A stretch of 64,000 bases of DNA, taken from contig JBBELK010000166.1 in assembly GCA_037783545.1 (NCBI GenBank), positions 62,001-126,000 on the forward strand. Direction: 5' to 3'. Below are positions 13,336 to 62,424 of this stretch, piece by piece. The stretch is from Henricia sp. BOLD:AAB3569 (lineage: Eukaryota > Echinodermata > Asteroidea > Spinulosida > Echinasteridae). Under the pieces are notes generated by a model. It was not told where the DNA came from and made no database searches. It saw only the letters and a program-made list of their open reading frames with translations. The translations under genes and the position numbers were made by a program. Numbering within the stretch: the stretch's first letter is position 1; each line of letters opens with the position of its first letter.

Positions 13336-14799
13336 ATGGGGAAGGTAAAATTAGTGGTCCTCTTTACACTGTTCTGTGTGTGGCCTTCAATTGACCAAAC
13401 TGGACCACAATTTGTTACTGCACAGCCGACAGTGATGGCTTGGATTGAAACACCTGAAGCCGGCTGTATAGGAGGGCAGTACGGTCCACATGAGGTGTGT
13501 GGATACCAATCTTGAGTAAAGTCATCATGTGGAATGGAGGCTTGGAGTGAAAACCCTACAATGGGACATTTACTCCATAACTCCTAAGCCACGCTTTACG
13601 TACGAGGCAAACTTCACGACAAACCCTACTCATGACGTAATTTAACTCAAGACTTGACAATATTTAATTTGCAAAGAGACGACACAGCTGAATACGTGTT
13701 CAACGTTCACGACACTAACATTACCTCTGGCAATCGGATTGTAGCTTCGCAGTCGGTACAGCTGTCAGTGTTTTACTTTCCAAATGAATCATTCCCCGTC
13801 TGTTTCCCCGATGGACCTGTTACAGTAGATGCTGGTACAGATTACGGGTTACAATGTTTATCTGATGCTGGCAATTCAGCAATCTCCACGGCAGTGTTAC
13901 CAAAGCCTGACAGATCAACAAACTATCAGTACGCGTGGAACATGTCCAACATCGATAACACTGTTAAGTGCTCCTTGAATTTAACACTAGATGCTGTCCA
14001 TGATAATATCACCTTTGAATGTGTCATTTTCTCAGTATTTTGACAGTATGCAGCAATCATGTACAATAGGACAAATCAACGTGGTGCGTCTAAAACCACC
14101 CGTAAAATCACCTTCCAACACAGCAGCTATAGGAGGTGCAAGTGTTAGTGCTGGCGTAGTCGCAATTATCCTAAAACCCACCATGTCGGACCCAGAGACA
14201 GATCCAAGCCCGATCAATGACATCCCTTTCCAGAAGCCCAGTAAACAGTTCTCAGGGGAATGAATACGCACAGACAGGACTCCACGCGCAAGTCCTCACT
14301 AACCCAAGGGAAGTACACTTTGCACAATCATCTGCTATAAATTAAGATATCCATTCCGCAAACTTACCTGAAGAAGCAAGACCAAATACCGATAGTTTAT
14401 CGCCTCATCAGGGACTAGATAATTACGGGTATGACGACACGGATCACTGCACGGAGCTATCCATTGCTAGAGCAAACGCAGCGGTCAGACCGATGTCAGA
14501 TGCCTCCCCACCTGAGCGACCTGCGCTTAAGCCCAAGCCATACAAACCAAACCCTCAGCGCCAGACAAGCTGTGAAGACAACACTCTCACACACAATTAA
14601 TGACAGGGTTGAACATAACCAACAAGAGACTAAGACAACACCACATTATGCCTCGGTATCAGTCCCCACAAGACACAACAGTACATCCCCAACCTCAAGA
14701 TCACACGATATTATCTATGCTGACTTAGATATGCGTTCACAACACTCGGGAGACTATGAAGAACAGTCGCTCTCTACCCCGGTTTATACGCTGTCGTAA
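13336..14799 (+). pseudogene. Decayed two-domain Ig receptor with ITIM-bearing tail
   Basis: It starts with a good signal peptide (MGKVKLVVLFTLFCVWPSI), then meets a stop at 13513-13515. A V-type Ig end (DTAEYVF) and a second domain (PVCFPDGP, matching PVCVPNGP in the downstream paralogues) follow in another frame. A frameshift occurs before CTIGQINVV, the membrane segment is shortened (GGASVSAGVVAIIL), and a third frame encodes the tail ending at 14799. That tail contains IIYADL, a perfect ITIM (I/V/L/SxYxxL/V/I), near SQHSGDYEEQ. At least three frame breaks make it a pseudogene unless introns hide them. It is the most diverged member of the array. Confidence 0.7.
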
Positions 14800-15433: not shown

Positions 15434-15640
15434 TACACTACTCAAAAGAATTAAAGGAACAAGAGAACATAATGTTTTTGTCATGGTCTATATGGGCTAC
15501 CGTTAGAACAAGAGGCATTAAAGTTATGTGAAAATCATTCAGGTGTTGTCAATTGATTCTCAAACAATACTCAACAATGTTGGTAAAATCATGCGTGTCT
15601 TCTAACACGTGGACACGGGGCCGTCCACAGGCGTGTTCTT

Positions 15641-17018
15641 TTATCCTGTATTCAATTCAATTTCAATTTCAATTCAATTCGTTTTATTTCCACACTTTTC
15701 ACAAAATAAATAACCAGTCAGAACATTGCATTCGCTCATTATATAAAAGAAAAGTGAAAGTGCAGAGGAACCCAAAGAAGCCTAGCTTGTTAATTATGGG
15801 TCCCTAATAGGGAACCAAAGTTAATACGTCATAACTATACATCGCTCTATACATGTGACAGTGGCTCCACACCAAACTTATAAAAGTGTTTACTACACAT
15901 ACATACATGTACTATTGAAGGGATAAAGATCCACTTATACCACTGTTGACATTACACTTTGGCTCTCCATACAAATAAATAAGTTGCAATACCTTAATTT
16001 ACTACACAATACAAGAACAAACAAAACTTATGCCTAAAACCAGCATGGGAATCTTGAGATAAGTACCAGTAATACATGTATTATAAATTAATGATAATTA
16101 GAAAGTAAAGTGGATTTATAAGTGCGCTTAAATATTGCAAGGTTTGTACATTTTTTCAATAAATCACTAAGTGAGTTCCATAACTTGGGCCCCTCATATC
16201 TCAAATTTTTATGTGCAAAGGAGGTACGAGTCAACGGAAGATGGAAGTGAAGAGCCTGTCGGGTAGGATAATTATGTACATTAAAATTCCGAATAAACAT
16301 TGAATTGATGGATGAAGGTAATGTTTTTAAAATAGACTGATACATAAGGGACCCAAGCTGATGATAATAAATATCCTTAATTTTCAATGTTTTATGTTGG
16401 TAAAATAATGGATCAGTATGAGAATTAAATTCAGAAAAATTAATTGTACGTAATGCACGTTTCTGTAGACGAAACAACCTATTAATGTTACTGGATGCAG
16501 AATTACCCCAATCAAGTATTCCATAATTTATATACGACACCACTAAGGTATTATATAGGGAAAATAGGATATATGATGGAACAAAATCTCTAATTTTATA
16601 AATCACACCAATATTCCTACTAATAATTGTACATAAATAATCAACATGATTGTTCCAGGTTAACCTAGAATCAATCACTAACCCAAGAAACTTAATACAG
16701 TCCGTTTTATCTATGTTAATATTATTAATTGAAATTTCACCTGGTAATTCACTTATAGAGTTGCTGAATAGCATATATCTAGTTTTGCTTAAATTTAATG
16801 AAAGTTTATTGACCCGAAACCAATTGGAGACAGAAGTAAGTTCACGGTTAACTGTCTCAACTAGGGTATTAATGTTTTTATGAGAAATAAATAAATTTGA
16901 ATCATTGGCAAATAATATAAATGAGAGAATCTCTGATGATTTGATAAAATCGTTAATATAAATTAAAAACAACAAAGGCCCTAAAATGGATCCTTGAGGT
17001 ACACCACAATTTATTGCT
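15641..17018 (-). mobile_element. 5'-truncated LINE (non-LTR retrotransposon), inserted in the Tc1 element
   Basis: The - strand encodes the C-terminal part of a reverse transcriptase of Jockey/CR1 type. Visible motifs are CGVPQGSILGPLLFLIYIND, FANDSNLF at the catalytic box, KFLGLVID, WNNHVDYL and the C-terminal KLWNSLSD block, ending at 16088. The catalytic box reads FAND instead of F/YADD, so a metal-binding Asp is replaced and the copy is probably inactive. The 3' end carries an (AATTG/AATTGA)-type simple-repeat tail near 15640-15680. The first 24 or so residues of the open frame come from antisense Tc1 sequence. Confidence 0.85.
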
Positions 17019-17182
17019 TGGCAGGTCGAGAACATGCTCCAGACTCTGTACAGACACTCAGAGAGGCCTTGGTTGAAGAGTGGGAGAACATTCCTCAAGA
17101 CTCCATAAGACAGTTAACTTTAAGCATGCCTCGACGCTGTCAGGAGTGCATACAAGCACGTGGAGGTCATACCAGTTACTAG
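17018..17182 (+). pseudogene. Tc1-type transposase C-terminal fragment
   Basis: The frame reads EALVEEWENIPQDSI...LSMPRRCQECIQ...GGHTSY followed by TAG, the conserved C-terminal end of Tc1-like DD34E transposases. The catalytic domain is absent from this copy. Confidence 0.8.
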
Positions 17183-17552
17183 ACAATGATTAATTAACGT
17201 TTACTTTGCCAAAACGTGGACAATGTACGGATAGTTATGATAACCTGCCAGATGATTATGTCCATATTTTTGTTCATTCATGTTTTAGTCATGTTAACAG
17301 GCTACCACATCAATAAATTTCGCCATACATTGTTGAGTATTGTTTGAGAATCAATTGACAACACCTGAATGATTTTCACATAACTTTAATGCCTCTTGTT
17401 CTAACGGTAGCCCATATAGACCATGACAAAAACATTATGTTCTCTTGTTCCTTTAATTCTTTTGAGTAGTGTAGAACGAGAATGGGGAGCTTTGGCGGGT
17501 TGTTTGGTGGTTTAGTGGTTAAGCATAGAAAATCAGAAGGACACGAGTAACC

Positions 17553-18575: not shown

Positions 18576-20063
18576 ATGAATAGAAGGTTGTGTTTGTTGT
18601 ATTTGCTTTTTATCAACGTTTATGCACATTTTATGAAAGGAGTGAGTGGAAAGACTGTCAGCCTCAGTCTGATTTCACCAACAGGAACAGATCCGAGAGA
18701 TGGTAACACAGTGCGACTGCGATGTAGTGCCACGAACCTACAGGTTGGTAACGTTATCGAATGGGCAAGATTCGAAACCAACCCTCAGATACTAGCCAGG
18801 AATGGAATGAGCCTCGACACAAGGTTTTCAATAACAACGGTACTGTCTTCTGTGACGTCAAAGGTGGAAAGTCTTGTATTTACTGCCTCAAAGCTGGACA
18901 GCGGGTTGTACTACTGTCGTGTCAAAGTATCAGCACTAGGCAATAACGAAATCGCGACAGCTAGTTTGCTTATCTCAGTTATTTATTTTCCAGTGGCCAT
19001 GTACCCTGTATGCGTCCCTAATGGTCCTACCAATGTGATGGAGGGAGCCCTTCTGAACATGAGCTGCACTACGGGACATGGACACCCACTAGTACATATA
19101 AACATTACATCCATCGATGGTCAAACGTGGACGGAGTCCGGTTCAAGAACTGAATCAATCCGTTCGTTGGGTCTACGAGTGAACACGAATCATAACGATC
19201 AAAGTGTCGAGTGTAGAATCACCTCAACAGCATTTCCTAACAGGGAAAGCTCATGTACAATCGGTCCTATTACAGTTGTACCCACCAACCCCGGACCACG
19301 CTCAACACAACCTACAAACATACCATCCTCTGAACAAAACATCCACACCACTTTTAAACCGACCACCGACATTTCCATCAATGCCGCAACGGATGTTCTC
19401 AGATCAGATACACCTTTTCAGCCAACCGATGACAATGATGAAATGTCAACAGTCACATCCAGTCTTGAGTCAATGACCAGTCGACCACGTGACCCTGACA
19501 AAGGTCTTCCCATTGCTGTTATCGCAGGAGCGGCTGGAGGAGGAGGTTGCTTGCTCATCATCATCTTAATCATCACAATCTGCATCTGTAGACGCAACCA
19601 CATAGGATCGAAGGAAGCCTCGCCACCAGACCCTAATTCACCTAACCCATCGTCTGCTTACGACCCAGGACTCCAGTCATTTTACGCTACTCCCCATGCC
19701 CCCAACATCAACACAGCCGAGATAAAGGAGAGTAATTACCACGTTATGCAAGACCAGATCGGTAATGATAATGGCAGTGGCGCCTCACAAAGCGTTCGAA
19801 ACACTAAACTACCGCCGATATACGCCTTTCCACAAAAGACGAATTCTGCTAAGAATCGGGACATGCCTAGTCGTCAAACAAATGGCATACGTGAGGCAAG
19901 TGCCGATGCCCATGAGAATTCAGATGGTCAGCACGAAATACCCGCCTATGCTGAAGTAAGACGAAACAGGCATCCAACTCGTGATCGCGAGGAAGAACGC
20001 CCTCTTCCACCCAGTATGATTACCCTTCAGCACTACAATAATACTGCCTTCGACTACGTATAA
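18576..20063 (+). CDS. Intact single-exon two-domain Ig receptor, tyrosine-rich tail (copy 1)
   Basis: 495 residues. I chose the ATG at 18576, not the in-frame one at 18552, because it aligns with the paralogue starting at 23176. Signal peptide 1-25. The V-type Ig domain has C50, W63 and DSGLYYC (C114). A second Ig domain has C164 and C213 plus an extra pair C146/C227. A Thr/Ser/Pro stalk covers about 235-310, and the membrane helix about 312-337. The 155-residue tail has Y388HVM (YxxM, PI3K-type), Y416AFP, Y458AEV (ITIM-like, but Pro at -2), RPLPPS and Y487NNT (YxN, Grb2-type). No intron is needed. The ectodomain is almost the same as copy 2, but the membrane helix and tail are unrelated. 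Likely a signalling surface receptor; ligand unknown. Confidence 0.85.
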   Translation: MNRRLCLLYLLFINVYAHFMKGVSGKTVSLSLISPTGTDPRDGNTVRLRCSATNLQVGNVIEWARFETNPQILARNGMSLDTRFSITTVLSSVTSKVESLVFTASKLDSGLYYCRVKVSALGNNEIATASLLISVIYFPVAMYPVCVPNGPTNVMEGALLNMSCTTGHGHPLVHINITSIDGQTWTESGSRTESIRSLGLRVNTNHNDQSVECRITSTAFPNRESSCTIGPITVVPTNPGPRSTQPTNIPSSEQNIHTTFKPTTDISINAATDVLRSDTPFQPTDDNDEMSTVTSSLESMTSRPRDPDKGLPIAVIAGAAGGGGCLLIIILIITICICRRNHIGSKEASPPDPNSPNPSSAYDPGLQSFYATPHAPNINTAEIKESNYHVMQDQIGNDNGSGASQSVRNTKLPPIYAFPQKTNSAKNRDMPSRQTNGIREASADAHENSDGQHEIPAYAEVRRNRHPTRDREEERPLPPSMITLQHYNNTAFDYV

Positions 20064-20617
20064 TAAGGATTAGTTCTCTAAATGAAAGCTGAACTTTGCA
20101 GTGCATCCTTAAACACACTAACAGTGCAACATTGCTTGTCTTTGTTGTATTTACTCAGCGGAAAACCGTATAAAACCGTTTGGACAGATAATGACAGATG
20201 TATTGTATACTGCAGCCAAAAGCAAGTTGTTCTCATATGCAGTATCTTAGTACAAAGACGTACAATGTCGGATGTTGTTTCATGGTCGTTAATAATGTCC
20301 CCGTCCAAACCAATTTTTGATCCACTAACTTCAGTTACTGACATAAATTTGAACAAAATTCCTTCTCAAGTAGCAATGTGACTTGCGCCGAAATCAACGT
20401 ACAAGTTCAATGTACTTTTATATCCAATTATTTAATCCACATTAACGTTTGCAAATTTTATATTTGAAATCGTATAAGTATCATTTATTATGTATCAAAT
20501 TATTGTATGTATACTTTTAACGGCTTGTAAATATGAATCCGCGGTTTAAAAAAAAGAAAAATAGATGGCAAATTTAATGCGTGATTGAAGTTTAAGCTGC
20601 ATTCAGAAATGATTGAG
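20064..20617. other. 3' flank of Ig receptor copy 1
   Basis: AT-rich non-coding DNA that probably includes the 3' UTR. No convincing AATAAA was found close to the stop codon. Confidence 0.4.
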
Positions 20618-20940
20618 CTTGACCAGATCACATTTGTTGACGCACCCAAAACCCATGGGTATTAAGATTTTATAGTACCATATAATTTGTCATATGTTTC
20701 TCATTACCATTCTGAAAAGATATTTCGCGCCCTCAGTTCGTATAGTTCGAGGGATATCGTCAAAAATCCACAGAAGTTTAGTAAACTAATTCGGTTACAT
20801 AAAATAGTGCAGTGATTTACACCAACCTTTTTGTTTCGACATCTAATTTGCAAATTTCCTGTTTTCTTCCCATGGATATTATTTTGGGATGGTATTTTAT
20901 ATGATTGTTAGGTTAGCGCTCCTTTCAAAGTTATGCTTCT
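20618..20940. mobile_element. Dispersed MITE-like repeat, copy 2
   Basis: It aligns with 12840-13178 over its whole length (GACCAGAT end, CCATGGGTATTAAGAT, ATCCACAGAAGTTTAGTAAA, TTTTATATGATTGTTAG). Non-coding. Confidence 0.6.
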
Positions 20941-20942
20941 GA

Positions 20943-21074
20943 ATAGACCGTATCGAATATCCGCCATCTTTGTTCCTTGAGGACATGCATGGTTGCACAT
21001 TGTGCTTACATTTTTGACCAATTAAAATGTCAATAGTTTCCCTACAAGATGGCAGCTATTCGATACGGTGTATA
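20943..21074. mobile_element. Hairpin MITE (CCGTATCGAATAGCCGCCAT family), copy 2
   Basis: The ends ATAGACCGTATCGAATA and TATTCGATACGGTGTAT are inverted, with the core CCGCCATCTT / AAGATGGC also inverted. The other copy is at 2457-2606. Confidence 0.8.
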
Positions 21075-21929
21075 GCTACAGGCCGAGGCTGGAGTGAACA
21101 CAAGTTCATTATTTTGATTTTAAAAAAAGTGAACACGGGAAATTGTTCGTCAAAATCGGTTTCCTTTTCAGCATTTAGCTTGAGATACATCGCCACCAAT
21201 GATTACTTTGCTGGATAAAATAAACCATTGGTGGTAAGCAGAGCTCATAATTCATTGTGATCCCTCTGCAATAATTTTTTTTCCATTTCTAATAATTTAG
21301 TTTATGTAGCCTACTAACATAATGGAAATGATAATCAGAAATGTTATTAATCATTTCGTGTATCTATGGTTTGGTTATTAAAAAAATCAACTCTGGCTTT
21401 AGATGCTGCCAATTATATGTGTAGCTGACCTTGCATCTCGACAATTCCAGGGTCATTGAGTCAACCCTCTTTCCTGTGTAAAGGTTAATGTAACTTTTCC
21501 CTGGGCATTAAATAGTCGTTTTGACCACAAAAAGCTTAAAGAAAGAAGATCAGGTCAAACTGACCCGGGAAAGTTTACAGTGTAAACACATAAGTGATGT
21601 TGAAAATTCAGTCACGGCTTTTGCCAAAATGATATTGAGTTCAATATTTTATTTTGGACTCTTTATTAAAATAATGTACTCAAAATGTTTTACGACAAAA
21701 TACCATTTAATGGTATTATTGAACTTAAAAAATATTAATTGATTATTCATACTGAATCCTTAATACAACAGTTTACGCAGAACATGTAAATCCTGCTTGC
21801 AAAAAGTGGCAAAAATTATAAAAATCTTTTTCGGTCTTCGTTACCCTTTATAAGTTATTATGTCTTTGGGCAAAGTACGGGCATGGAAATCACTGAAATT
21901 ATAAATATTACTAATTTCTGGGCAACTAT
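21075..21929. other. Intergenic DNA, no gene recognised
   Basis: AT-rich, with short chance ORFs only. Confidence 0.4.
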
Positions 21930-22127
21930 GGTATAGTAGTCGAGTCCATCACAAGTCATCATAAGCCTTCACAAGACCACCACAAGTCCCTGGGTCTTAA
22001 TTCAAGTCACAAGCTATTCAAATTAACTCCAACAAAGGCATTCTTTTGTGCGTGTTCTTTTCACGGACTTGTGATTGTATCGACTCTGGACTTGTGATAG
22101 ACTTGTGATGGACTCGACTACAACCCT
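21930..22127. mobile_element. MITE with TIR GTAGTCGAGTCCA, copy 2
   Basis: The left end TAGTAGTCGAGTCCATCACAAG and right end GATGGACTCGACTACAAC are inverted. The interior (TGGGTCTTAATTCAAGTCA, CAAGCTATTCAAA) matches 5307-5515. Confidence 0.75.
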
Positions 22128-22413
22128 GCAAACTACCATGGAAAATAAAACAACTAAACTTAAGGGCCTTATGATCGGGATACGATATACATGTACACAG
22201 AATTTTACGTGTATCATAAAGCTTCACTAACTAATAAGACAAATCGCGTTTTCTTCATTCCGCTGGGTACATCTTTCACAATAGCATAGCTCTCAAAACG
22301 AAAAAGTATAATTATAGCAAACTGTGCAGAAGTAACTATTTTGACTAGCCGTGTGTGGTCGGTGTATGTTATGCCCACAAAAGTCCACCTATAAACTGCA
22401 CCGAGAAACTGTT

Positions 22414-22542
22414 TTAAAGGCACAGGCTCGTCAGCAATGCGCGCGCGCAAAATTCGTGCCACGAAATACGCAGCTCCATAGCAAAGGCATGGAGCTGACA
22501 CGATTAAAGCGCGCGCGCATTGCTGACGAGCCTTGCCTTTAA
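22414..22542. mobile_element. Palindromic MITE with TTAA ends, copy 2 of 4
   Basis: TTAAAGGCACAGGCTCGTC on the left and GACGAGCCTTGCCTTTAA on the right, with GCGCGCGC arms and the shared ATTCGTGCCACGAAATACG core. The TTAA at both ends marks the target-site duplication. It sits immediately upstream of the truncated Ig copy. Confidence 0.9.
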
Positions 22543-22573
22543 ATTGAATGTCTGGTTGTCACCGAAACAAATA

Positions 22574-22738
22574 ATGAAAACATTTGGATCGTATTTAAGG
22601 GTCGTTCTTTGCTTTGGTGTTGTTTTTATAGACGGAGCGAGCGGACAGACTTCAAGCCTCAATCAAATATCCCCAAAAGGAACAGGTCGGAGAGAGGGTG
22701 ACTCAGTGCAACTGCTGTGTATCGCCTTCAACATACAT
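22574..22738 (+). pseudogene. Truncated 5' fragment of an Ig receptor copy
   Basis: ATG and signal peptide (MKTFGSYLRVVLCFGVVFID) are followed by SGQTSSLNQISPKGTGRREG and the first Ig cysteine (QLLC), aligning with the paralogues at 18576, 23176 and 28633. Homology stops near 22738; the open frame continues with unrelated residues to a stop at 22870. The 5' UTR motif TTGAATGTCTGGTTGTC is shared with copy 2 (23137 region), so this is a duplicated copy that lost everything after the start of domain 1. Confidence 0.75.
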
Positions 22739-23175
22739 CGAGGCTTTTTTAAGCTCACCTATAACCTGCCTCAACATACCGTAGCAAGTTTACTATCTCG
22801 AAAGTTTGCGATCTGGAAATGTATAACAGCAAACTGCGGAGAATATAGTGAACAAACAAAACCCACGTAGACATTATAGGTCAAACATTCTAAAGGGGCG
22901 AACAAACTTTCACGAGGAGAGTTATTTCCAGTTCTAGGATGTAGTCTCTGTGGAATTAAAAGCGCGAGCGTTACATCATGGTTTCCCCATTTTCTATATA
23001 CTGAAGTATTGCACCGTTGATTCCATTCACAACAACACAATGCACGTTCTTTCTGCATTCAAGCTGCCTACCAAGCAATTTATCAGGAAATGCAAACAAA
23101 TCCGAGTCTAGCTGCTTTGACAGACCATTTTCGGCTCAAGTTGAATGTCTGGTTGTCCCAAACACTGTTACGACC

Positions 23176-24384
23176 ATGAATAAATCTTATGGATTGTATC
23201 TGAGGATCCTTCTTTGCCTTGGTCTTGTTAAAATGGAAGGAGTAAGCGGACAGACTATAAGCCTCAGTAAGATGTCACCATCAGGAACAGATCCGCGAGA
23301 GGGCGATACAGTGCGACTGCAATGTAGGGCCACGAATATACAGGCTGGTAACGTTATCGAATGGGCAAGATTCGAAATCAACCGTCAGATACTTGCCAGG
23401 AATGGAATGAGCCTCGACACAAGGTTTTCAACAACAACGGTACTGTCTTATGTGACGTTAAAGGTGGAAAGTCTTGTCTTTACTGCCTCAAATCTGGACA
23501 GCGGGATGTACTACTGCCGTGTCAAAGTATCAGCACTAGGCAATAACGAAATCGCGACAGCTAGTTTGCTTATCTCAGTTATTTATTTTCCAGTGGCCAT
23601 GTACCCTGTATGCGTCCCTAATGGTCCTACCAATGTGATGGAGGGAGCCCTTCTGAACATGAGCTGCACTACGGGGCATGGAAACCCACTAGTACAAATA
23701 AACATTCCATCCATCGACGGTCAACCGTGGATGGACTTCAGTTCAAGATTTGAATCATTACGTTTATTACGACTTCGAGCGAACTCGAATCATAACGGTC
23801 AGAGTGTCAAGTGTAGAATTACCTCCACAGCATTTCCTAACAGAGAAAGCTCATGTACAATCGGTCCTATTGCGGTTGTACCCACCAACCCCGGGCCACG
23901 CTCAACACAACTTACAAGTCTACCATCTTTTCAACAAAACACCTTTAAACCAACCACCTTTGTTTCCACTAATGCCGACACGCAGACACCGGAGCATGTT
24001 CCCAAATCGGACACATATGTTGAGTCAACCGGTGGTATCAGCGACAGAGAAGATACGACACAGATACAACATAATACCCTAGATCTGACCAGCCGGCCGG
24101 CAGCCAGTCAGCTCCCTATATCTGCTCTTGTTGCGGGTGTCGCCGGTGCGTCGAGCGTCCTAACACTTCTAATCGCTGTCATCGTGTATCAATCTTACAA
24201 GAGAGTGACCTGCTTCAAGAAGGAAAGCCCTGAACAACAGACTCCCACTCAACCAACAACCGACTCGTACATGGACCTTCAACCTATGCAGAACGAAGGC
24301 TACACGGGACTCGCCCCACCCCATACATATTGCCAATCACAGAATGAGCTTCCCGAACAGGATTATGAGCAGTCGCAGAGCTGA
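23176..24384 (+). CDS. Single-exon two-domain Ig receptor with intrinsic ITAM (copy 2)
   Basis: 402 residues, starting at the ATG at 23176 (preceded by ACGACC; the upstream in-frame ATG at 23017 adds a non-homologous leader). It has a signal peptide, a V-type Ig domain (C50, IEWARFE, DSGMYYC), a second Ig domain (YPVCVPNGP, LLNMSC, SVKCRIT, SSCTIGP), a Thr/Pro stalk, a membrane helix at about 315-337 (LVAGVAGASSVLTLLIAVIVY) and a 65-residue tail. The tail carries YMDLQPMQNEGYTGL (Y365 and Y376), which fits the ITAM consensus YxxL-x7-YxxL. The last codons and stop (SQS, TGA at 24382) come from the inverted repeat of a 3.4-kb inserted element; the original C-terminus survives beyond it at 27821-27850. 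The ITAM is untouched, so the protein may still signal. Confidence 0.85.
   Translation: MNKSYGLYLRILLCLGLVKMEGVSGQTISLSKMSPSGTDPREGDTVRLQCRATNIQAGNVIEWARFEINRQILARNGMSLDTRFSTTTVLSYVTLKVESLVFTASNLDSGMYYCRVKVSALGNNEIATASLLISVIYFPVAMYPVCVPNGPTNVMEGALLNMSCTTGHGNPLVQINIPSIDGQPWMDFSSRFESLRLLRLRANSNHNGQSVKCRITSTAFPNRESSCTIGPIAVVPTNPGPRSTQLTSLPSFQQNTFKPTTFVSTNADTQTPEHVPKSDTYVESTGGISDREDTTQIQHNTLDLTSRPAASQLPISALVAGVAGASSVLTLLIAVIVYQSYKRVTCFKKESPEQQTPTQPTTDSYMDLQPMQNEGYTGLAPPHTYCQSQNELPEQDYEQSQS
24268..24312 (+). other. ITAM motif in Ig receptor copy 2
   Basis: It encodes YMDLQPMQNEGYTGL: two YxxL units separated by seven residues, with acidic residues at -2 of each tyrosine. It is conserved exactly at 30015-30059. 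Confidence 0.85.
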
Positions 24385-24924
24385 CATACCGGCGAATAGC
24401 AATTTTTCCGATTTTCAGATATTGACATTTTTGGGCCTCTGATAGGTTGCCCTTTCAAATTCTTTTTGCAAAAAACCGGAATTGTTCATATTTTATGAGA
24501 TTGAGAGTCCCCGCCGGCGACGAATCTTGAAGATTAGTACATGAAAAATTTGACAAACTGACGAATATGTATTTTCGCTGGTCACTATTCATTGAAACAG
24601 TTCATTCAAGGTACCAGCTATCATTTATTAGTTGCAGTACGCACGGTTAGCAAGATGCTGGGTAAAAATTGAGTTTTGGGTCAGATTTTTTTTGTGAATA
24701 ATTGTTTATTCCGATTAAGAATTGTGTTGTCTTGTCTATTTGTCTGGCACTGATTTAATTAATCCAGTTTAATCATTTAAAATTGTATATCAAATTTCAT
24801 ACTTTAAAAAAATAAGTTGTTAATGAAATTCACTGTTTAACAAAAAAAAATGAAGGAAAGAAATAATCAGTGTGTCAATATTTTAAACTCCAGCTGTGTT
24901 TTACTGCAAAACAGTTTTGCATAA

Positions 24925-24972
24925 TTAGGTGATCGGGCCAACAGCCCGATCACCTATTACTCTCGTACGATT

Positions 24973-25003
<31 letters not shown>

Positions 25004-27180
25004 CTTTTTCCACTCAAACGTTTCCAGAGCTTTTCTTCAAAACGGTTCAAGCTATCAACTTGAAACTTTGTAGGAACATCAACCCCAATGTGAAGGTGTG
25101 CATACAAGGGTGACGTCATTGTGACGTCATTGGGTATCAAATTACAACCCAAAAATGACTAAAATATGCATGTTTTAAAATGCTTCCGTCTGGAAAACCA
25201 CGTGACCCATGATTTTCGTATTTAGCAGGCTTATAGATAAGATCATGGCCTACGATTTTCTTCGTGTGGGCATTTTCATCTGACCCTTCCTTCTGGGGTC
25301 AATCTGAGGTCAAAGTTCAACGAAAACGAAAATCGCAATTTTTGCACTTATTGAGCAACAATGCCCATCAAACCAAGCTGAATCTTTAAGTAACTAAGTA
25401 CAGGCATAGGTCCTATGGCAGACTTTCACCAGCGTGTATAATATTATGATGGCATCAAGCGTGACGTCATCGTGACGTCATCAAGTATCAAATTACACCC
25501 CCCAAAAAAACAAAATATGCATATTTTAAAATGCTTCCGTCTTGAAAACCACGTGACCCAGGATCTTCGTATTTGGCAGGTTTACAGATGACATTCTGTG
25601 CTACAATTTTCTTTGTGTGGGCATTTTCATCTGACCCTTCCTTCTGGGGTCAATTGGAGGTCAAAGTTCAACGAAACTGAGAATCTCAGTTTTTACACTT
25701 ACCAGCAACAATGCCTATCAAACCAAGCTGAATCGTTAGTAAATTAGATACAGACATAGGCCCTACGGCAGACTTTCACCAGAATGTATAGTATCATGAT
25801 GGCATCAAGTGTGACGTAATCATGACGTCATCAGGTGTCAAATTACAAAAATTCAAAGGTTATTATTTCCAAAATTCATATCTCAAGAACCGTAATAGAT
25901 ACTTGAACAATTCTTTCACAACATGATAAGTCTAAATGAACTGAACAAATCATACGATGTCATGACCCCTGTGTGACGCCTACTTCCGGTCCAAACCGGA
26001 AGTTGTTCGAAAATGTGCATTTTGTAAGCGTTTTGAATGCAAATAGATTCAAAGTGGTAGTGAATTTGACCATATTTCTACGGAACGAAATGTTTCCACA
26101 CATGTAGACTTTTTGACTATACCATTTGTGACGTCATCACATGGACGGTGGTTACGTAATGTGGCGTCAAAATACGCAAATTTGGAGCTGAATTGTTTTA
26201 AAATGCTGTATCTTGAGAACTACAGCAGATATTTGCATGATTCTTTCGCCACATTTAAGAACTTGATGTTTATCAAATTGTTGAACAATTTGTGCACAAC
26301 ATTGTGACGTCATGATATCGTCACAGGTGTCAAATTACACAAATTCAAGAGTTATTATTTTTAAAATTCATATCTCAAGAACCGTAATAGATACTTGAAC
26401 AATTCTTTCACAACATGATAAGTCTAAATGAACTGAACAAATCATACGATGTCATGACCCCTGTGTGACGCCTACTTCCGGTCCAAACCGGAAGAGGTTC
26501 GAAAATGTACACTTGTTTAGCACTTTGAATGCAAATAGAGCCAAAGTGGTAGGGAATTTGACCATAGTTCTACGGAACGAAATGTTTTCACACATGTGGA
26601 CCTTTTGACTATACCATTGGTGACGTCATTACATGGACGGTGGTTACGTAATGTACGTCAAATTACGCAAATTTGGAGCTGAGATGTTTTAAAATGCTGT
26701 ATCTTGAAAACTACAACAGATATTGGTATGATTCCTTCGCCACATTTCAGAACTTGATGTTCAACATATTGTTCAACAATTTGTGCACAAAATTGTGACG
26801 TCATGATGTCGTCACAGGTGTCACATTACAAGATTTCAAAGGTTATTATTTCAACAATTCATATCTCAAAACGGTGCAAGCTATCAACCCCCAGCTATGG
26901 CGGATATGCAGGGAGGAGATATTAGTTACCGGATTGGTGTATACAGCAGCCGATTTCACGAAACTTTACGCAATTGCGCAAGTCCACTTACGCCATAAGC
27001 TATTGCGCAAGTAATGGCGTAAGTGGACTTGCGCAATTGCGTAGAGTTTCGTGAAATCGGCTGCTGAACTTCCATTTTTGCCATTCCATAGGTGATAACA
27101 ACGTCTGAAATTCATCACAAAATGTTCATTTAGCCCGATCACCTGGCGTTTGTAACAACAAACGTCATACCTCTAGTTAT
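24925..27180 (-). mobile_element. Nested non-autonomous element, Helitron-like or foldback (class uncertain)
   Basis: The left edge holds a perfect 12-bp hairpin AGGTGATCGGGC-CAACA-GCCCGATCACCT (24927-24955), and on the - strand the element would end CTAA followed by host T, as in Helitrons. The hairpin, however, abuts the end, which is unusual. GCCCGATCACCT recurs near 27134 in inverse orientation. A poly-T run lies at about 24969-25005. The interior has a block of about 355 bp repeated twice (25098, 25457) and one of about 493 bp repeated twice (25833, 26326), with many TGACGTCA palindromes. Non-coding. Confidence 0.5.
26944..27066. repeat. Near-perfect 53-bp-arm palindrome
   Basis: The arms CAGCAGCCGATTTCACGAAA... 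and ...TTTCGTGAAATCGGCTGCTG enclose a loop of about 17 bases, with TTGCGCAAGTCCACTTACG inverted inside. It is either a small MITE or a cruciform-forming site. The flank at 26889-26943 is shared with 55945-56010. Confidence 0.85.
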
Positions 27181-27803
27181 TGTTGATGTTATTTCCTTGA
27201 ATAAATAATAAGCTTTCAAACTTTTATACATGGTTGTAGGTTTTTATGGGTACAAATGCTATTGATTTAGTACTGTTCAAGAGAAATAAAATGGTCCAAC
27301 AAAACTGGGATTATGAATTTATTAAGTGAATACGTAATCTTTTGTTAGTTGCCTAGGCAATGGCTCTACACTAAAAATCACTTTACCGTGTCCCTGTGCT
27401 GTTCCAATGTGGCCACGCACGTCACACTTCGGCTGTCTATAGCAAATGCGCATTAAACCCCACCGACGAATACCACACAGAGCAGCGCAAGCGCGGTTTT
27501 GTAATCTGACAAACTGACGAATAGCATGCAAAACGGTGACGAAAAATCACCAACGGTGGTTTTTGCAATTTGACAAACTGACGAATAATTTTCACCTCAA
27601 ATTACAACGCAATTCCCAACATCCTTGTCATAAACATGACTTTTATAGATAAAATATCCCCCACTTCAATAGAAACGTACTTCTATAAGGTTATTATCGA
27701 ATTATTACGAGTAAAATAGAACGCCAAATTACCCGTCCAACTTCAAGCACGTTTTTCTCAAAACCGAGTTTTGGCGTATTCGTCAGTATGTCAGCTCTGC
27801 GAC

Positions 27804-28110
27804 GCTGATGAATGCGATGCACCAACAGAGAATATGAGGGCATGAAATAATAAGCTTCGAGTTCTAATTATGTTGCATTTTGTTTACATGTACGTTTCCT
27901 GAAGGAGCTTTTAACCTGTCTGGTTTCAGAGGCTCTCGTAGAAAACTGCACATGTAAACACAAAGTACCTTCATTAGTACTCAGGCATATGGATATATCA
28001 GTGTATATAATCAAATATGTACAAATCACTACATAATGGATGTTGAAGCTGTCACAGTGCACATTATTTGTGCCAATAAAAGTCGGGCGTGTGATTTTCC
28101 GAGGCACATG
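27804..28110 (+). pseudogene. Displaced C-terminus and 3' UTR of Ig receptor copy 2
   Basis: After the inserted element the sequence again aligns with the end of copy 3. ACC AAC AGA GAA TAT GAG (TNREYE) then TAA at 27848 corresponds to TNKEYE...TAA of copy 3, followed by the shared 3' UTR (TTTGTTTACATGTACGTTTCC). An AATAAA at 28075-28080 is conserved with 30376-30381. This segment was cut off from its gene by the 3.4-kb insertion. Confidence 0.75.
28075..28080 (+). terminator. Original polyadenylation signal of Ig copy 2
   Basis: AATAAA in TGTGCCAATAAAAG, at the same place as in the aligned 3' UTR of copy 3 (30376-30381). Confidence 0.6.
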
Positions 28111-28666
28111 TCACTATTACAAAACTATGTACAGTCGAATGGGAAATTCGGGAAAGCTTGTCTTCGAACACAATACTCCATGTGAAAACAACAGTAAGAA
28201 ATATTGTAAACATCGTACATTTTGTAAAATGGTTGCATTAGTTGTGCCAAACGGTTGTTCTGAATTAGCTGCTGTACCGAATATTTATGAGGAAGTCGTT
28301 TTTACGGCTCTAGGCTGCATTAGTTCAATAGCAGCCAAGTTACACAACTCTGCAAAAAAGTGCTCGCCCGTGGGGATCAGGCTTTTATCCAAAGTGTTTT
28401 TCTATTCACGTGTACTATACTGTTGGTTCAATTCAGTACGAAACACGGACTTCTTTTCGACACTGAATTCGGTAACCTGACAATTCAATTTACTTAGCAA
28501 TTTAACTGAAAAGGCGTGTGCTTTGTATAGTCCGTGTTATGCTCATTATAAGAGTCCCTCTCGAGGTAAATGCTTGGGAGACTGATTGACGTTCACGCTT
28601 AATGTCTTATCGTCATAAAGAATAGTAAGACCATGATTACGTCATATGGACTGCGTTTATCGGTTC

Positions 28667-28941
28667 CAGGGGCGGATGCAGGGGGGCGTAGGAGGCGCAC
28701 GCACCTCCCCCCCCCCCCCGCCCCCCTTTTCCAAAAAAAACCAAAACAAAAATGTTTGTGCACACTTTTCCTGCTTAAAGTGGTTAAATATTGCCTCAGA
28801 TCGCACCACAGCATCTAGAATCTATCTAGAAGCCGTCAGTGCTTCGCGCTACGCGCTCGCTATTTCATTGTGATTGTCATCATCATTTCATGCTTACAAA
28901 TTTCACGCTCCCCCCTTTTCAAAATCCTGGATCCGCCCCTG
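28667..28941. mobile_element. 275-bp MITE in the signal-peptide codons of Ig copy 3
   Basis: The terminal inverted repeats CAGGGGCGGATGCAGG and CCTGGATCCGCCCCTG differ at one base. A 5-bp target duplication GGTTC lies at 28662-28666 and 28942-28946. The ends are of the CAGGGGCGGATCCAG type seen in hAT-like MITEs, although hAT elements usually duplicate 8 bp. It has a C-rich run near 28708-28730. Confidence 0.9.
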
Positions 28942-30014
28942 GGTTCTGCTTTACGTTGGTGCTGTTTGTATGGACGGGGTGAACGAACAGACTGTGAGCC
29001 TAAGCCTGATGTCATCAACGGGAACAGATCCGCGAGAGGGTGACTCAGTGCGACTGCGATGTATCGCCTCCAACCCACAGGATGATGGTTACGTTATCGA
29101 ATGGGCAAGATTTGAAACCAACTCTCAGATTCTAGCCAGGAATGGAATGGCACTTGACCAAAGGTTTTCGGTAACAAGATTTTTGCCCTCTGTGACGGTA
29201 AAGGTGGAAAATCTGGTTTTTACTGCTTCTCAGCAGGACACTGGGATTTACTATTGCCGTGTCAAACAATCAGCACTGGACACCAGCGGATTCTTGACAT
29301 TAGCTATAGTTTGCTTCTGTCGGTTCTTTATTTCCCAGCGGTCATGTACCCGTCTGTGTCCCTGATGGTCCTAATGTGCTGGAGGGGGGCCTACTGAACA
29401 TGAGCTGCTCTACGGAGTATGGGAACCCGCCAGTACAGATAAACATTTCACCCTTCGATGGTCAACCGTGGACGGAGTCCAGTTCAAGAACTGAATCAAT
29501 CCGTTCGTTGGGTCTACGAGTGAACACGAATCATAACGGTCAAAGTGTCGAATGTAGAATCACCTCCACAGCATTTCCTAACCGGGAAAGCTCGTGTACA
29601 ATCGGTCCTATTACGGTTGTATCCACCAACCCCGGGCCACGCTCAACACAACCTACAAGCCTACCATCTTCTCAACAAATCACTTTTAAACCAACCACGG
29701 AATACTCCACTAATGCAGAAACACAGACACCGGGGTATGTTCCCAAATCGGACACATCTTTCGAGTCAACCAGTAGCATCAACGACAGAGAAGATACGAC
29801 ACAAATACCACAGAATACTCTAGATCTGACCAGCCGACCGGTAGTCAGTCAGTTCCCTATTGCTGCTCTTGTTGCGGGTGTTGCTGGTGCATCGAGCGTC
29901 CTAACACTTCTAATCGTTGTCATCGTGTATCAATCCTACAAGAGAGTGACCTGCTTAAAGAAGGAAAGCCCTGATGAACAACACTCAACTACCACTCAAC
30001 CAACAACCGACTCG

Positions 30015-30059
30015 TACATGGATCTTCAACCGATGCAGAATGAAGGCTACACGGGACTG
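30015..30059 (+). other. ITAM motif in broken Ig copy 3
   Basis: It encodes the same YMDLQPMQNEGYTGL as copy 2, with synonymous third-base changes. Confidence 0.85.
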
Positions 30060-30375
30060 GCCCCGCCCCATGCATATTGCCAAACACTGGGTGTTCAGAA
30101 TGAGTCACGTGAACAAGATTATGAGCAGGTTAATGCCACCAACAAGGAATACGAGGTCACGGAACAATAAGAGCAGTACTAATGATATTGCAGTTTGTTT
30201 ACATGTACGTTTCCCCATGGAGCTACGACCTGTCTGGTTTCAGAAGATCTCGTAGAAAACTGCACATGTAAAGAAATTACACTGTCATTAGTCTTCAGGC
30301 ATATGGAGACCAGTGTGTAAGATAAAATGTAAAGGAATCAGTACATTGGATAATGAAGCTGTTCACTGCTGTGCC

Positions 30376-33282: not shown

Positions 33283-34026
33283 TTAGTTAGCCATCAATAC
33301 AGATCGGAAAAAGAGGCAATCTCGACGCATCCTGGACATGTCCACATCGGCTATGTCCTGACGAATGACGTTGTTCAGCCGGCAAATAATATCTCCTCCA
33401 TCCTGCTTCATCAAACTGAAGGAGCGACATCGGGGCTCGGATCGGCAGCCTTTCCCGCACCACGCCACCACTGTACCTTGTAGCTCCTTAGTGATGTGAC
33501 TGGAGACTGGGCACCGGGAGGCGACGCGACCATCTGAACTGATCTGAACGCAGTGTGCAGGGTTGGCTGTGGCGCTGATTGGTAATTTGCAGATGGCATG
33601 TCTCTTTTCGCTACACTGTATATCATTCCATTTCCCGTTCCAATCTACACGAGCTACTGCGCAGTCAGCTCCATTGTAGTTGTCTGGTTGACCGCTCTCC
33701 CAATTCTCGTAGGCATTTGTCTCATTCTTCAAGTGACATGGCTGCCACTTCCCCTCGATTTCTATATCATTGCAGCCAATCCAGATACTTTTAGTTAGAG
33801 GAATCTGAAGAAACATCTTCCAGATGAAATCTTGCTCTCCAGATGAGACGGGGAGGGCCAGGGTTGCTCCCTTTTCAAAACAGGATTGATTAGCCTCACG
33901 CCAGTTCATCAGTTCCTTTATTGTGTAGTAGCAGGACTCGCCGTACTGCTGCCAGTCTGAGGGGCAGATCGCGGCAAGAGTAGTAACAAACCAAAAGATT
34001 GCAATAAAGAACGGGTAACGAGCCAT
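33283..34026 (-). CDS. Secreted C-type lectin with PAN/apple-like domain (lectin 1)
   Basis: 247 residues in one exon. Signal peptide 1-18 (MARYPFFIAIFWFVTTLA). The C-type lectin domain at about 21-147 has CPSDW, SCYY, WIGCND, EGKW, QPD (113-115), WND (133-135) and HAICK. QPD plus WND is the usual calcium-dependent galactose-type combination, but specificity is inferred. WIGCND and GKWQPC add an extra cysteine pair compared with the common WIGLND. The C-terminal part (159-237; WCGKGCRSEPRCRSFSL, CRLNNV) resembles a PAN/apple domain. No membrane helix is present. First gene of a three-copy tandem array, all on the - strand. Confidence 0.88.
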   Translation of the reverse strand: MARYPFFIAIFWFVTTLAAICPSDWQQYGESCYYTIKELMNWREANQSCFEKGATLALPVSSGEQDFIWKMFLQIPLTKSIWIGCNDIEIEGKWQPCHLKNETNAYENWESGQPDNYNGADCAVARVDWNGKWNDIQCSEKRHAICKLPISATANPAHCVQISSDGRVASRCPVSSHITKELQGTVVAWCGKGCRSEPRCRSFSLMKQDGGDIICRLNNVIRQDIADVDMSRMRRDCLFFRSVLMAN

Positions 34027-37186: not shown

Positions 37187-37920
37187 CTAGTTAGCCACTA
37201 ATACAGATCGGAGAAAGAGGCAATCTCGACGCATCCTGGACACATCCACTTTTGCTATGTCCTGACGAGTGACGTTGTTCAGCCGACAAATACTCTCTCC
37301 TCCTTTCTGCCCCATCAAAGTGAAGGAGCGACATCTGGGCTGGGATCGGCACCCTTTCCCGCACCACGTCACGCTTGTACCTGGTACGTCATCGGAGACT
37401 GGGCACTGGGAGGCGACACGACCATCTGAACTGATCTGGAGGCAGTGTACAGGGTTGGCTGTGGCGCTGACCGGCAACTTACAGATGGCGTGTCTGTTAA
37501 GATGACATCGTCCATCGTTCCATTTCCCGTTCCAACCTATATGAACCAATGCGCAGTCAGCATTATCATATTTACTATCTGGTTCACGGCTCTCCCAGTT
37601 CTCGTAAGTATTTCCATCATTCTTCAGTGGGCATGGTTGCCACTTCCCCTCGACTTCTATATCATTGCAGTCAATCCAGAGACCTGCGGTTGGCGGTATC
37701 TGAAGAAACGTCTGCCAGATGAAATCTTGCTCTTCAGATGAGACAGGGAGGGCCAGGGCAGCTCCCATTTCAAAACAGGCTCGATGAGCGTCATGCCAAT
37801 TCATCATTGCTTCAATGTGTAGTAACAGGACTCGCCGTACCGCTGCCAGTCTGACGGGCAGATAGCGGCCAGAGCAGTAACAAACAAAAAGCTTGCAATG
37901 AGCAACAGACTACGAGGCAT
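37187..37920 (-). pseudogene. Frameshifted C-type lectin/PAN copy (lectin 2)
   Basis: Reading from the ATG at 37920: signal peptide (MPRSLLLIASFLFVTALA), CPSDWQRYGESCYYTLKQ, then TGA. One base is missing compared with lectin 1 at the IKELMNW codons (around 37808-37820). The remaining 206 codons (37807-37187) are open and encode the rest of the lectin domain, with EPD in place of QPD and WND kept, and the PAN-like domain (WCGKGCRSQPRC). The single 1-base deletion in an otherwise intact frame suggests recent loss, or a sequencing error. Confidence 0.8.
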
Positions 37921-38752: not shown

Positions 38753-39499
38753 CTAGTTAGCCATCAATACAGATCGGAGAAAGAGGCAATCTCGACGCAT
38801 ACTTAATATGTCCACATCTGCCATGTCCTGACGAGTGACGTCATTTAGCCGACAAATAATCTCTCCTCCATCCTGCTCTATCAAACTGAAGGAGCGACAT
38901 CGGGGCTCGGATCGGCAGCCTTTCCCGCACCACACCACCGTTGTACCTGGTAGCTCCTTGGTGGCTTGACCGGAGAATTGGCACCGGGAGGCGACGCGAC
39001 CATCTGAACTGATTTGAAGGCAGTATGCGGGGCTGGCTGTGGCGCTAATCGGGAATTTACAGATTGCGTGTCTCTCGAAGTGGCACCGACCATCATCCCA
39101 TTTCCCGTTCCAATCTCTCCGAGCCATTGCGCAGTCAGTATTATCGTATGGACTTTCTGGTTGACCGCTCTGCCAGTTTTCGTAGGCATTTGATTCACCC
39201 TTTAAAGGACATGGCTGCCACTTTCCCTCGATTTCTATATCATTGCAGTCAATCCAGAGACCTGCGGTTGGCGGTATCTGAAGAAACATCTGCCAAATGA
39301 AATCTTGCTCTTCAGACGAGACAGGGAGGGCCAGGGTGGCTCCCTTTTCGAAACAGGTTCGATTAGCGTCATGCCAGTTCATCAGTTCCTTTATCGTGTA
39401 GAAGCAGGACTCGCCGTACTGCTGCCAGTCTGGCGAACAGATAGCGGCTAGAGCAGTAACAAACCAAAAGCTTGCAACGAGAAACACATAACGAGCCAT
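38753..39499 (-). CDS. Secreted C-type lectin with PAN/apple-like domain (lectin 3)
   Basis: 248 residues when started at the ATG at 39499, which aligns with lectin 1; an in-frame ATG at 39514 would add MKGST. Signal peptide MARYVFLVASFWFVTALA. In the lectin domain (CSPDW, SCFY, WIDCND, EGKW) the calcium/sugar motifs read QPE (113-115) and WDD (134-136) instead of QPD and WND. Carbohydrate binding may therefore be altered or lost. The PAN-like domain (WCGKGCRSEPRCRSFSL, CRLNDV) is conserved. Single exon, no membrane helix. Confidence 0.87.
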   Translation of the reverse strand: MARYVFLVASFWFVTALAAICSPDWQQYGESCFYTIKELMNWHDANRTCFEKGATLALPVSSEEQDFIWQMFLQIPPTAGLWIDCNDIEIEGKWQPCPLKGESNAYENWQSGQPESPYDNTDCAMARRDWNGKWDDGRCHFERHAICKFPISATASPAYCLQISSDGRVASRCQFSGQATKELPGTTVVWCGKGCRSEPRCRSFSLIEQDGGEIICRLNDVTRQDMADVDILSMRRDCLFLRSVLMAN

Positions 39500-39514
39500 C
39501 GTCGAACCCTTCAT

Positions 39515-39940
39515 GTCTCAGGCAACAACTAATGGAATTGCTTCACTCAAGAACGTAGTTGTAGGATGTTTGTTCATTTTGCTCGGAAGTCTCTACATAT
39601 ATTATTCAAAACGAATGTTTCTCTCTTTTCCAGCTCTTTCCAGAAAAAGAAGACGTGTAGCGAGATCCCCTGCACGACGGAATGATATCAGATAATTCAA
39701 GCTGCTACAGCTTCTTGCTGCTATTTTGAGTTTCTTGACTTGCACCAGATACAGTTCACCAGAGCTCTGAACGGCCAAATTCTAAAGTGTTTGGGTGTGC
39801 AAGTGTACGACAGCGACTGGAGCCGTATTACGCTGCACCGAGTATTCTCATCCAATAGATTCCGAGCAAATTTGTCGATAGACGTCAGTGCTATATTTCG
39901 TAATGGTCGACCAATTGGGCTCGATTGTTTCCATACGCAC
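39515..39940 (-). promoter_or_regulatory. Proximal upstream region of lectin 3
   Basis: It aligns with the upstream regions of lectins 1 and 2, but is cut at 39940 by a 5.1-kb element. The distal part reappears at 44998-45175. Confidence 0.45.
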
Positions 39941-60519: not shown

Positions 60520-62424
60520 TGAGTACAAGACTACATGGACATATATAAAAACTATAACTACACCAACTTGATCCTATCAGTTATTACTATGTAAAAATTA
60601 TTGAATAAGAATTTCACCAAGCTACATATACAATCCATTAAGCAAGCAGTATGTTAAACAACAGAAACCTCGGGAGAATTTGAGCAAATCCACAGCAAAC
60701 CTTAGGGTTATTTCACATTCTGGCAAGTGTGCACCTTCGCTTATGATAAAAATCATCTTGCTTGACCAAAACGCAAGAATGAGACAACACATTATTTGTA
60801 TCTTTGGGTTTTGGTGCATTCTTAAAATAAACATCAATTCCCCATGTGCTTAGTCCACTGGCGTACCATGGGGTACTTTTGGAAGATGGAGTGCTTTCAG
60901 AACCTGACACATTTTTGTAATTTACTCACTAGTCAAACAGATCCTGGGAAATCTGGACCTCTAGCCAAGCCCCATTCATTTGTGTACACTGCACAATAGA
61001 AGCTATTAATCATACTACTTCTAGCCCTTAGTTCAAATTCTAGCTCCTTCCATTCCTTACTCAAAATTTCAAACAGTGTGTTTCGTTAATCAAACTGAGC
61101 TGTGCTAAGCAAAGATGCACGCTTACCAGTTCCGATCCACGACCTCCCTGACCCGTGAGTCAACTTACTTGACGTAGTCCTGGGCCTGCTATGGGCCCGG
61201 CATTCCAACTCTACATTCTCTACGGGTGGGAGACTTCTATTCCTTACATCATGACCTGTGCTCTTTTGCACTTTTTTTGGAAAACAAAACACATGCAATC
61301 TGAGCTTTGGTACACAAAACAAGCATGCAGCAAGGGACAGTCTATTACATCCAAACTGTTTGGTATTTCATGCTTCATATATGGACAATGTTAAAGATCT
61401 ACAACCAACTAAGCTGCGTCGATATTTCGATATTATTTGATATCGATTTATTCTGATATCGATATCAGCAATGTAACTTTTGTAATCGTATCGAAATATT
61501 GAACTTTCCGATATTGAAGAAAAAAAAATCAGGGAAAATCAGTATTCTGCAAGCCACAAACGCAAGGCATTACTCACATGCTTGATCTTTCACAAAATTT
61601 ACGATCGGACATGCGGCAAAAATCATGCACAAAATAAAGCACGAGACTGGTTAACTTCGTATGTGTGTAACAATAGAAAAGTTTAAACGTGCAAATGCAG
61701 TTCATCCAAAAACACAATACCGGACTGATAAACTGCATACTATGCCTACGCACAAACTAAACATAATTTACGTACTGCTTGCGCATCTTGTTAGTTGTTA
61801 TTTCAGCCGGTACAAACATGTGGTTTTTTTTTTGCAAAGACGAGTGCGTGTATGCGTGGACCTTTCGTACACATAACAGCTGGTACCGTGACTACGAGTA
61901 CGGCAGCCAATTAAATTAAGAGGCACAGCAAGTGGCCCTAGGATGTTGATTATAATACGGCAGATTTAGCCGATGTGGCTGCCCTGCAGGAGCGCTGAGC
62001 TTAAGCATCTTTGGCCGTCGAAATGTACATTGTAAAATTGCTTTAATTTTCGATATATTGGATTAAATCGATATTTAGATGGCATACATATTAATATCGG
62101 CACAATGCCGATACATGTACATGTATCGGAAAAGCTTACAACCAACGAGGTTTACGAGGTTTCGCCCAAGATATGGGCTAAACCATGCAGAAGCACACAT
62201 ATCTTAGCACATTCAAAACTAATTGTTTGCATGCATCTACTTTTTTTGACCCAAAATTACTACCATAAAACATTTGTTTTTACTAAATCGTGTCATAATG
62301 TGATCCGTTATTGGTTAACAGGCGTGCAATATTTGACTAACAAAAACAAAAAAATCCAAGTTGTACATTTTAACGGGATTTTTAAATGAAACAAAGCATA
62401 ATGAGTAAATCAGGCGGATATTTG
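60520..62424. other. No gene recognised; AT-rich DNA
   Basis: Short chance ORFs only. GATATCGAT(A/T)-type motifs cluster at 61425-61510 and 62050-62125, with CGATACATGTACATGTATCG forming a palindrome at about 62110-62129. This may be an old inverted-repeat element. Confidence 0.4.

Follow-up and report, generated by a model that had tools for sequence, protein, structure and literature searches.

The window, a 64,000-nucleotide stretch of contig JBBELK010000166.1 from the echinoderm Henricia sp. BOLD:AAB3569, contains between 13 and 30 kb five copies of one gene family, all on the plus strand. Two of the copies are intact genes for immunoglobulin (Ig)-like receptors that share an ectodomain and carry different tails, one of them with an immunoreceptor tyrosine-based activation motif (ITAM). 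The original prediction had seen a paired-receptor-like system in this arrangement. Its shared ectodomain, distinct tails and ITAM hold up, the first as a mosaic and the last through an exclusively synonymous pattern of change; its inhibitory arm is a possibility only, as the intact partner, copy 1, carries no strict immunoreceptor tyrosine-based inhibitory motif (ITIM). The members of the family, and one insertion, are:

13336-14799, plus strand: older pseudogene of the family, with broken frames, a short hydrophobic stretch and a tail containing YASV and IIYADL
18576-20063, plus strand: copy 1, an intact Ig receptor open reading frame (ORF) of 495 amino acids with a long tail that lacks an ITAM
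22574-22744, plus strand: 5′ fragment of a further copy, comprising the signal peptide and the start of the first Ig domain (Ig1), with a 5′ flank common to it and copy 2 (p = 0.001)
23176-24384, plus strand: copy 2, an intact Ig receptor ORF of 402 amino acids with an ITAM tail
28633-30170, plus strand: copy 3, an ITAM-type pseudogene, disrupted by frameshifts and an insertion
28667-28941, no strand assigned: 275-bp transposon-like insertion in the copy 3 signal peptide, with 15/16 bp terminal inverted repeats and a 5-bp target duplication

Neither copy 1 nor copy 2 is interrupted between its ATG and its stop codon (495 and 402 codons, respectively), and therefore no intron is needed. In both, a signal peptide is followed by two Ig-like domains, then by a Ser-, Thr- and Pro-rich stalk, a single membrane helix and a tail. 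The parts on which the argument below depends are:

18648-18986, plus strand: copy 1 Ig1, residues 25-137 (approximate borders), with C50 and C114 as the predicted pair
18987-19271, plus strand: copy 1 Ig-like domain 2 (Ig2), residues 138-232 (approximate borders), with C164 and C213 as the predicted pair
19512-19598, plus strand: copy 1 membrane helix, residues 313-341 by hydropathy and 323-343 in the model
19599-20060, plus strand: copy 1 tail, 154 amino acids with seven tyrosines, among them those of YHVM (388), YAEV (458) and YNN (487)
24115-24195, plus strand: copy 2 membrane helix, residues 314-340 by segmentation and 322-347 in the model
24268-24312, plus strand: copy 2 ITAM YMDLQPMQNEGYTGL, of the form YxxL-x7-YxxL, with tyrosines Y365 and Y376
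30015-30059, plus strand: copy 3 ITAM, identical in protein to the YMDLQPMQNEGYTGL of copy 2, with four synonymous differences

Profile and predicted fold together argue for membership of the Ig superfamily. Copy 2 lies narrowly above the Pfam cut-offs (Ig_3, 30.2 against 30; Ig_2, 27.1 against 27) and copy 1 narrowly below them (Ig_3, 28.1 bits with a cut-off of 30; Ig_2, 26.7 with a cut-off of 27), the match spanning Ig1 only in each case. Pfam gives no separate match for Ig2 of copy 1; strands for it are seen in the copy 2 model. Structure prediction, proposed in the original prediction as a way to model the domains, gave a weak AlphaFold model of copy 2 (mean predicted local distance difference test (pLDDT) score 43.7; ten-residue blocks of Ig1, 43-79) that has Ig strands and the membrane helix, and a poor single-sequence model of copy 1 (mean pLDDT 36.4). 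The 50 Foldseek matches listed for the copy 2 model are Ig folds, mostly antibody chains, with low TM-scores. A phmmer search of copies 1 and 2 against Protein Data Bank (PDB) chains gave no significant match, the best being an Fc receptor chain (E = 0.068), with SIRP-alpha at E = 0.84, and three tails had only non-significant matches among PDB sequences.

The original prediction treated copy 3 as a second ITAM receptor; its motif stands but its gene does not. The 275-bp insertion interrupts the signal peptide, which resembles that of copy 2 once the flanks are joined across it, and two frameshifting indels follow between about 29300 and 29352. These lesions mark copy 3 as a pseudogene. The insertion itself may be a non-autonomous DNA transposon. 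The alignment of copies 2 and 3 starts at about the signal peptide and runs nearly to the stop codon, and beyond these limits their flanks have no significant likeness (p = 0.18 for 80 bp upstream and 1.0 for 400 bp downstream), for which retroposition or flank decay could account. Hidden Markov models (HMMs) of both Ig domains and of the helix and tail found no further clear copy among the 1274 stop-to-stop frames of at least 30 residues in the window (next E, 0.26 or worse). A weak match at 61183 (tblastn, E = 0.016) was ruled out as a further Ig copy, as it contains a stop and has no Ig profile match.

Ectodomains, helices and tails compared

The original prediction described copies 1 and 2 as almost the same protein from the signal peptide to the start of the stalk. 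Their ectodomains are indeed alike, with 86.7% identity over 811 blastn columns (18633-19431 against 23233-24034), but their signal peptides are not, sharing 8 of 25 residues with a nonsynonymous divergence (dN) of 0.85. Similarity sets in roughly where the signal peptide ends and is gradually lost along the stalk, so that the ectodomain is shared and the ends are not: in successive segments, identity runs from 80% at the start through 94%, 100%, 85% and 84% to 55% for the outer stalk and 40% for the helix. Copies 1 and 2 are thus linked genes with near-identical ectodomains, the arrangement looked for in paired receptors.

This likeness is unevenly distributed among the three copies. Across 871 ungapped columns there are 231 variable sites, of which 91 pair copies 1 and 2, 73 pair copies 2 and 3, 52 pair copies 1 and 3, and 15 differ in all. 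The groupings occur in blocks when judged against 20,000 permutations of the sites. First, 29 consecutive sites (18927-19075) pair copy 1 with copy 2 (p = 5e-5, the floor of the test, as a run and 5e-5 as a scored segment). Second, 12 consecutive sites (19149-19185) pair copy 1 with copy 3 (p = 5e-5, again the floor, as a run; 1e-4 as a scored segment). Finally, sites on the stalk side pair copies 2 and 3 (p = 0.004 as a run and 5e-5 as a scored segment), and stalk, helix and tail all group copy 2 with copy 3. Two stretches of complete identity underlie the first two blocks:

18918-19075 in copy 1 and 23518-23675 in copy 2, plus strand: 158-bp tract identical in the two copies, lying across Ig1 and Ig2, a putative conversion tract
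19141-19197 in copy 1 and about 29482-29538 in copy 3, plus strand: 57-bp tract identical in the two copies, within Ig2, a second putative conversion tract

The longer tract is made up of adjacent stretches of 44 and 114 bp, which nothing separates but an insertion in copy 3. Within it, copies 1 and 2 are the same in all 147 ungapped columns, against 80% agreement of copy 3 with either of them, which rules out protein constraint alone as the cause of the identity. Duplication of haplotypes in the assembly was rejected as unlikely, given that flanks, signal peptides and tails differ. The simplest reading of the mosaic is gene conversion between old paralogues, and conversion or recombination of this kind would keep the ectodomains alike over differing tails, as in paired receptors. 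The ratio of nonsynonymous to synonymous change (dN/dS) between copies 1 and 2 is 0.80 in Ig1, 0.50 in Ig2 and 0.65 in the stalk, which suggests that the common ectodomain is not strongly constrained.

The helices and tails had been called unrelated in the original prediction, which is borne out for the tails proper of copies 1 and 2, between which there is no detectable relation (p = 0.24), and contradicted for the helices. With the copy 1 helix as query, the top scores among the 81 hydrophobic stretches in the window, the query itself aside, belong to copy 3 (46) and copy 2 (44); the next scores 34, the reversed copy 2 helix scores 23 against that of copy 1, and in a shuffle test the relation has p = 1/3001, the floor. 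The helices of all three copies are thus distantly related, in keeping with conversion between old paralogues, and a tail swap behind an unrelated helix is ruled out. No relation is claimed between either intact tail and that of the old pseudogene, for which uncorrected p values in its two frames are 0.048 and 0.53 with the copy 1 tail and 0.53 and 0.032 with the copy 2 tail.

Tyrosine motifs of the tails

The ITAM that the original prediction placed inside the receptor itself, in copies 2 and 3, is confirmed at both positions. In copy 2, the pattern Yxx[LI]-x6-8-Yxx[LI] lies on the cytoplasmic side of the single membrane helix of the model. It arises by chance in 0.13% of 200,000 shuffles of the 62-residue tail (as YxxL/I-x6-8-YxxL/I), and occurs 12 times in the 127,996 residues of the six frames of the window, copies 2 and 3 included; the motif by itself is not rare, and its position and conservation are what count. 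The ITAM rule has an acidic residue at -3; in copy 2 this residue stands at -2, not -3.

Conservation was assessed by comparing copy 2 with copy 3. Four differences separate their 15 ITAM codons, and all four are synonymous, for which the neutral chance is 0.001 (kappa 1) to 0.003 (kappa 4). In a 22-codon block around the ITAM, dN/dS is 0.05 (5 synonymous changes and 1 nonsynonymous), compared with 0.55 in Ig1, 0.34 in Ig2, 0.66 in the stalk, 0.16 in the helix and 0.39 in the tail. Helix and ITAM block together differ from Ig1, Ig2 and stalk by Fisher's test on rounded counts (p = 0.007). Because copy 3 no longer works, selection on the ITAM would predate its death. Motif and synonymous-only change together indicate that the cluster includes an activating member with an ITAM; this half of the pair is supported, and its signalling is predicted.

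In the tail of copy 1, the YxxM, YxN and YAEV motifs of the original prediction are present, as YHVM, YNN and YAEV. YxxM motifs recruit PI3K, and YxN motifs recruit Grb2. The tail contains no ITAM and no strict ITIM ([SIVL]xYxx[LIV]), and its YAEV is without the hydrophobic residue at -2. Its open frame is informative in itself, since a frame of 154 codons stays open in 0.1% of shuffled tails. A strict ITIM is confined to the old pseudogene, whose IIYADL the original prediction had called perfect; the motif is there, but 22% of shuffles of that tail contain a strict ITIM by chance.

A paired-receptor-like reading and its rivals

We favour, with a probability of about 55%, the reading that the locus is a tandem cluster of apparently single-exon receptors with two Ig domains, in which an ITAM type and a long-tailed type have ectodomains matched by conversion and give opposed or at least different signals. 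The two types would be old paralogues whose tails have diverged and whose ectodomains have repeatedly been made alike by gene conversion. Expressed at the cell surface, both would recognise the same or overlapping ligands. When copy 2 clusters, a Src-family kinase would phosphorylate the two ITAM tyrosines, and the phosphorylated motif would bind a tandem-SH2 kinase of the Syk type in cis, without an adaptor. The YHVM, YAEV and YNN of copy 1 would transmit a phosphotyrosine signal of another kind, modulating or inhibitory. As far as sequence tells, such a system would work like a paired receptor, and we call it paired-receptor-like; we do not file it as a member of that class because a strict ITIM was sought in the intact partner and not found.

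Several observations weigh against this reading. Between copies 1 and 2, the Ig domains have a dN/dS of 0.5-0.8, a level compatible with relaxed constraint. The 80 bp upstream of the two genes are without detectable similarity (p = 0.19), and therefore different cells may express them. The evidence for selection on the ITAM comes from small counts, four changes measured against a partner that is now dead, and the ITAM block differs from Ig1 alone at just p = 0.033 (Fisher's test, rounded counts). For the copy 1 tail, no relative for comparison was found by the window HMMs, the tail comparisons or the PDB search. In shuffles of that tail, YxxM, YxN and Yxx[LIV] occur jointly in 3.2%, and with no strict ITIM beside them an inhibitory role of copy 1 is therefore a guess, although a possible one.

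The absence of a strict ITIM and the presence of YxxM and YxN would equally suit two activating or merely different receptors, in which copy 1 signals through motifs of the PI3K and Grb2 type and one ligand has two outputs that are not opposed. We consider this rather unlikely. The YAEV of copy 1 resembles the DDYATV and HDYSEV sites of an amphioxus leucine-rich-repeat (LRR) receptor, which also lack a hydrophobic residue at -2; according to the passages of PMC8211107 that describe it, this receptor inhibits T-cell signalling and loses the effect once three tail tyrosines are mutated together. The sister pseudogene, moreover, carries YASV as well as IIYADL, the latter subject to the chance frequency given above.

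The ligands, too, could be of another kind than pathogens. Adhesion or allorecognition receptors in the manner of Alr or FcoR would have the same motifs and bind homophilic or self ligands; Botryllus FcoR and, as a review reports, candidate allorecognition proteins of Hydractinia bear such motifs (PMC12065747). The adhesion protein Rst (D1-D2) is also on the Foldseek list, at rank 8 of the 50 matches listed (TM-score 0.20/0.32) and amid mostly antibody chains. Such a match is common to Ig folds in general, and it comes from the weak copy 2 model; we regard this explanation as unlikely. Slightly less probable again is ordinary birth-and-death of tandem Ig genes, with conversion a neutral by-product of closeness and tails that have no paired role, an account that fits a family of two intact genes, one fragment and two pseudogenes and the loosely evolving stalk (dN/dS about 0.66) but not the exclusively synonymous changes in the ITAM core of copies 2 and 3, the open 154-codon tail of copy 1 or the placement of the strongest 1-2 and 1-3 tracts in the Ig domains, although dissimilarity of the tails alone would block conversion there.

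The paired-receptor-like reading has counterparts among known systems. CEACAM1/CEACAM3 and other ITIM/ITAM CEACAM pairs are, like the receptors here, clustered and of the Ig type, with an ITAM or ITAM-like motif within one partner and otherwise different tails (PMC2832619). As that source describes them, they differ in having separate exons, with similarity highest at the N-domain exon, where each gene here is one uninterrupted ORF; in a partner with ITIM or immunoreceptor tyrosine-based switch motif (ITSM) that is called inhibitory, where copy 1 has no strict ITIM; and in known pathogen ligands. Siglec-11 and Siglec-16, of which one inhibits and the other activates, likewise owe the likeness of their ectodomains to gene conversion that recurred under relaxed constraint, and in humans the activating partner commonly has nonfunctional alleles (PMC5701461). 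Unlike the present pair, they are vertebrate proteins with known sialic-acid ligands, and the abstract of PMC5701461 mentions no intrinsic ITAM.

Signalling of this kind on invertebrate Ig receptors is not without precedent and is already in print: ITAM, ITIM or hemITAM (hemi-ITAM) tails are described in Botryllus, Hydractinia and oyster. The Botryllus fester/FcoR proteins are clustered invertebrate Ig receptors with tyrosine-motif tails, which bear ITIM, hemITAM and a core motif, some thought to activate and some to inhibit (PMC12065747). Their partners are different proteins side by side, unlike copies with one shared ectodomain, and FcoR has a V-type Ig, a sushi and two C2 Ig domains, with no full ITAM stated in the passages of PMC12065747 that concern it. 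In Hydractinia, the Alr family is likewise one of clustered Ig genes, 41 in number (as cited in PMC11999971), and candidate allorecognition genes are said to bear ITAM and ITIM (as cited in PMC12065747); the family differs in its allorecognition function. In the oyster, the Ig receptor CgIgIT2 is expressed in haemolymph and has a tail that itself includes an ITAM; it has five Ig domains, and the passage in PMC11999971 mentions no partner with a shared ectodomain. Among the matches listed from the open-licence literature, no invertebrate pair appeared that combines different tails with one ectodomain shared through conversion, which is weak evidence of absence, and none was an ITAM Ig pair from an echinoderm, amphioxus or sea urchin.

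That the cluster is an independently evolved invertebrate paired-receptor system, its ectodomains matched by recurrent conversion and the CEACAM1/CEACAM3 solution reached out of host-pathogen or self/non-self conflict, is a further step that we propose tentatively. If true, different or opposed tails behind one recognition face would be a convergent outcome, not only an invention of vertebrate leukocytes, and intrinsic-ITAM signalling would occur together with conversion-driven matching of ectodomains in an animal without antibodies. The apparently intron-free genes and compact cluster would make the idea easy to test.

Surroundings of the cluster

Wider searches were negative: six peptide patterns of copy 2 found no relative in viral contigs, PADLOC gave no result on copy 2, and Rfam gave none at its gathering cut-offs. 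Three tandem uninterrupted C-type lectin ORFs on the minus strand adjoin the Ig cluster (33283-34026, 37190-37909 and 38756-39517; Lectin_C, E about 1e-15), two of which have a weak PAN_1 match, below the cut-off, in the C-terminal part. Upstream of copy 1, a 147-bp perfect inverted repeat (15434-15580 and 17327-17473, 1746 bp apart) flanks a reverse-transcriptase ORF on the minus strand (16091-17113). Between copies 2 and 3, the interval 24925-27172 is rich in repeats; it contains internal duplications at distances of about 350 and 491 bp, and GTGACGTCAT-like units that are abundant by eye.

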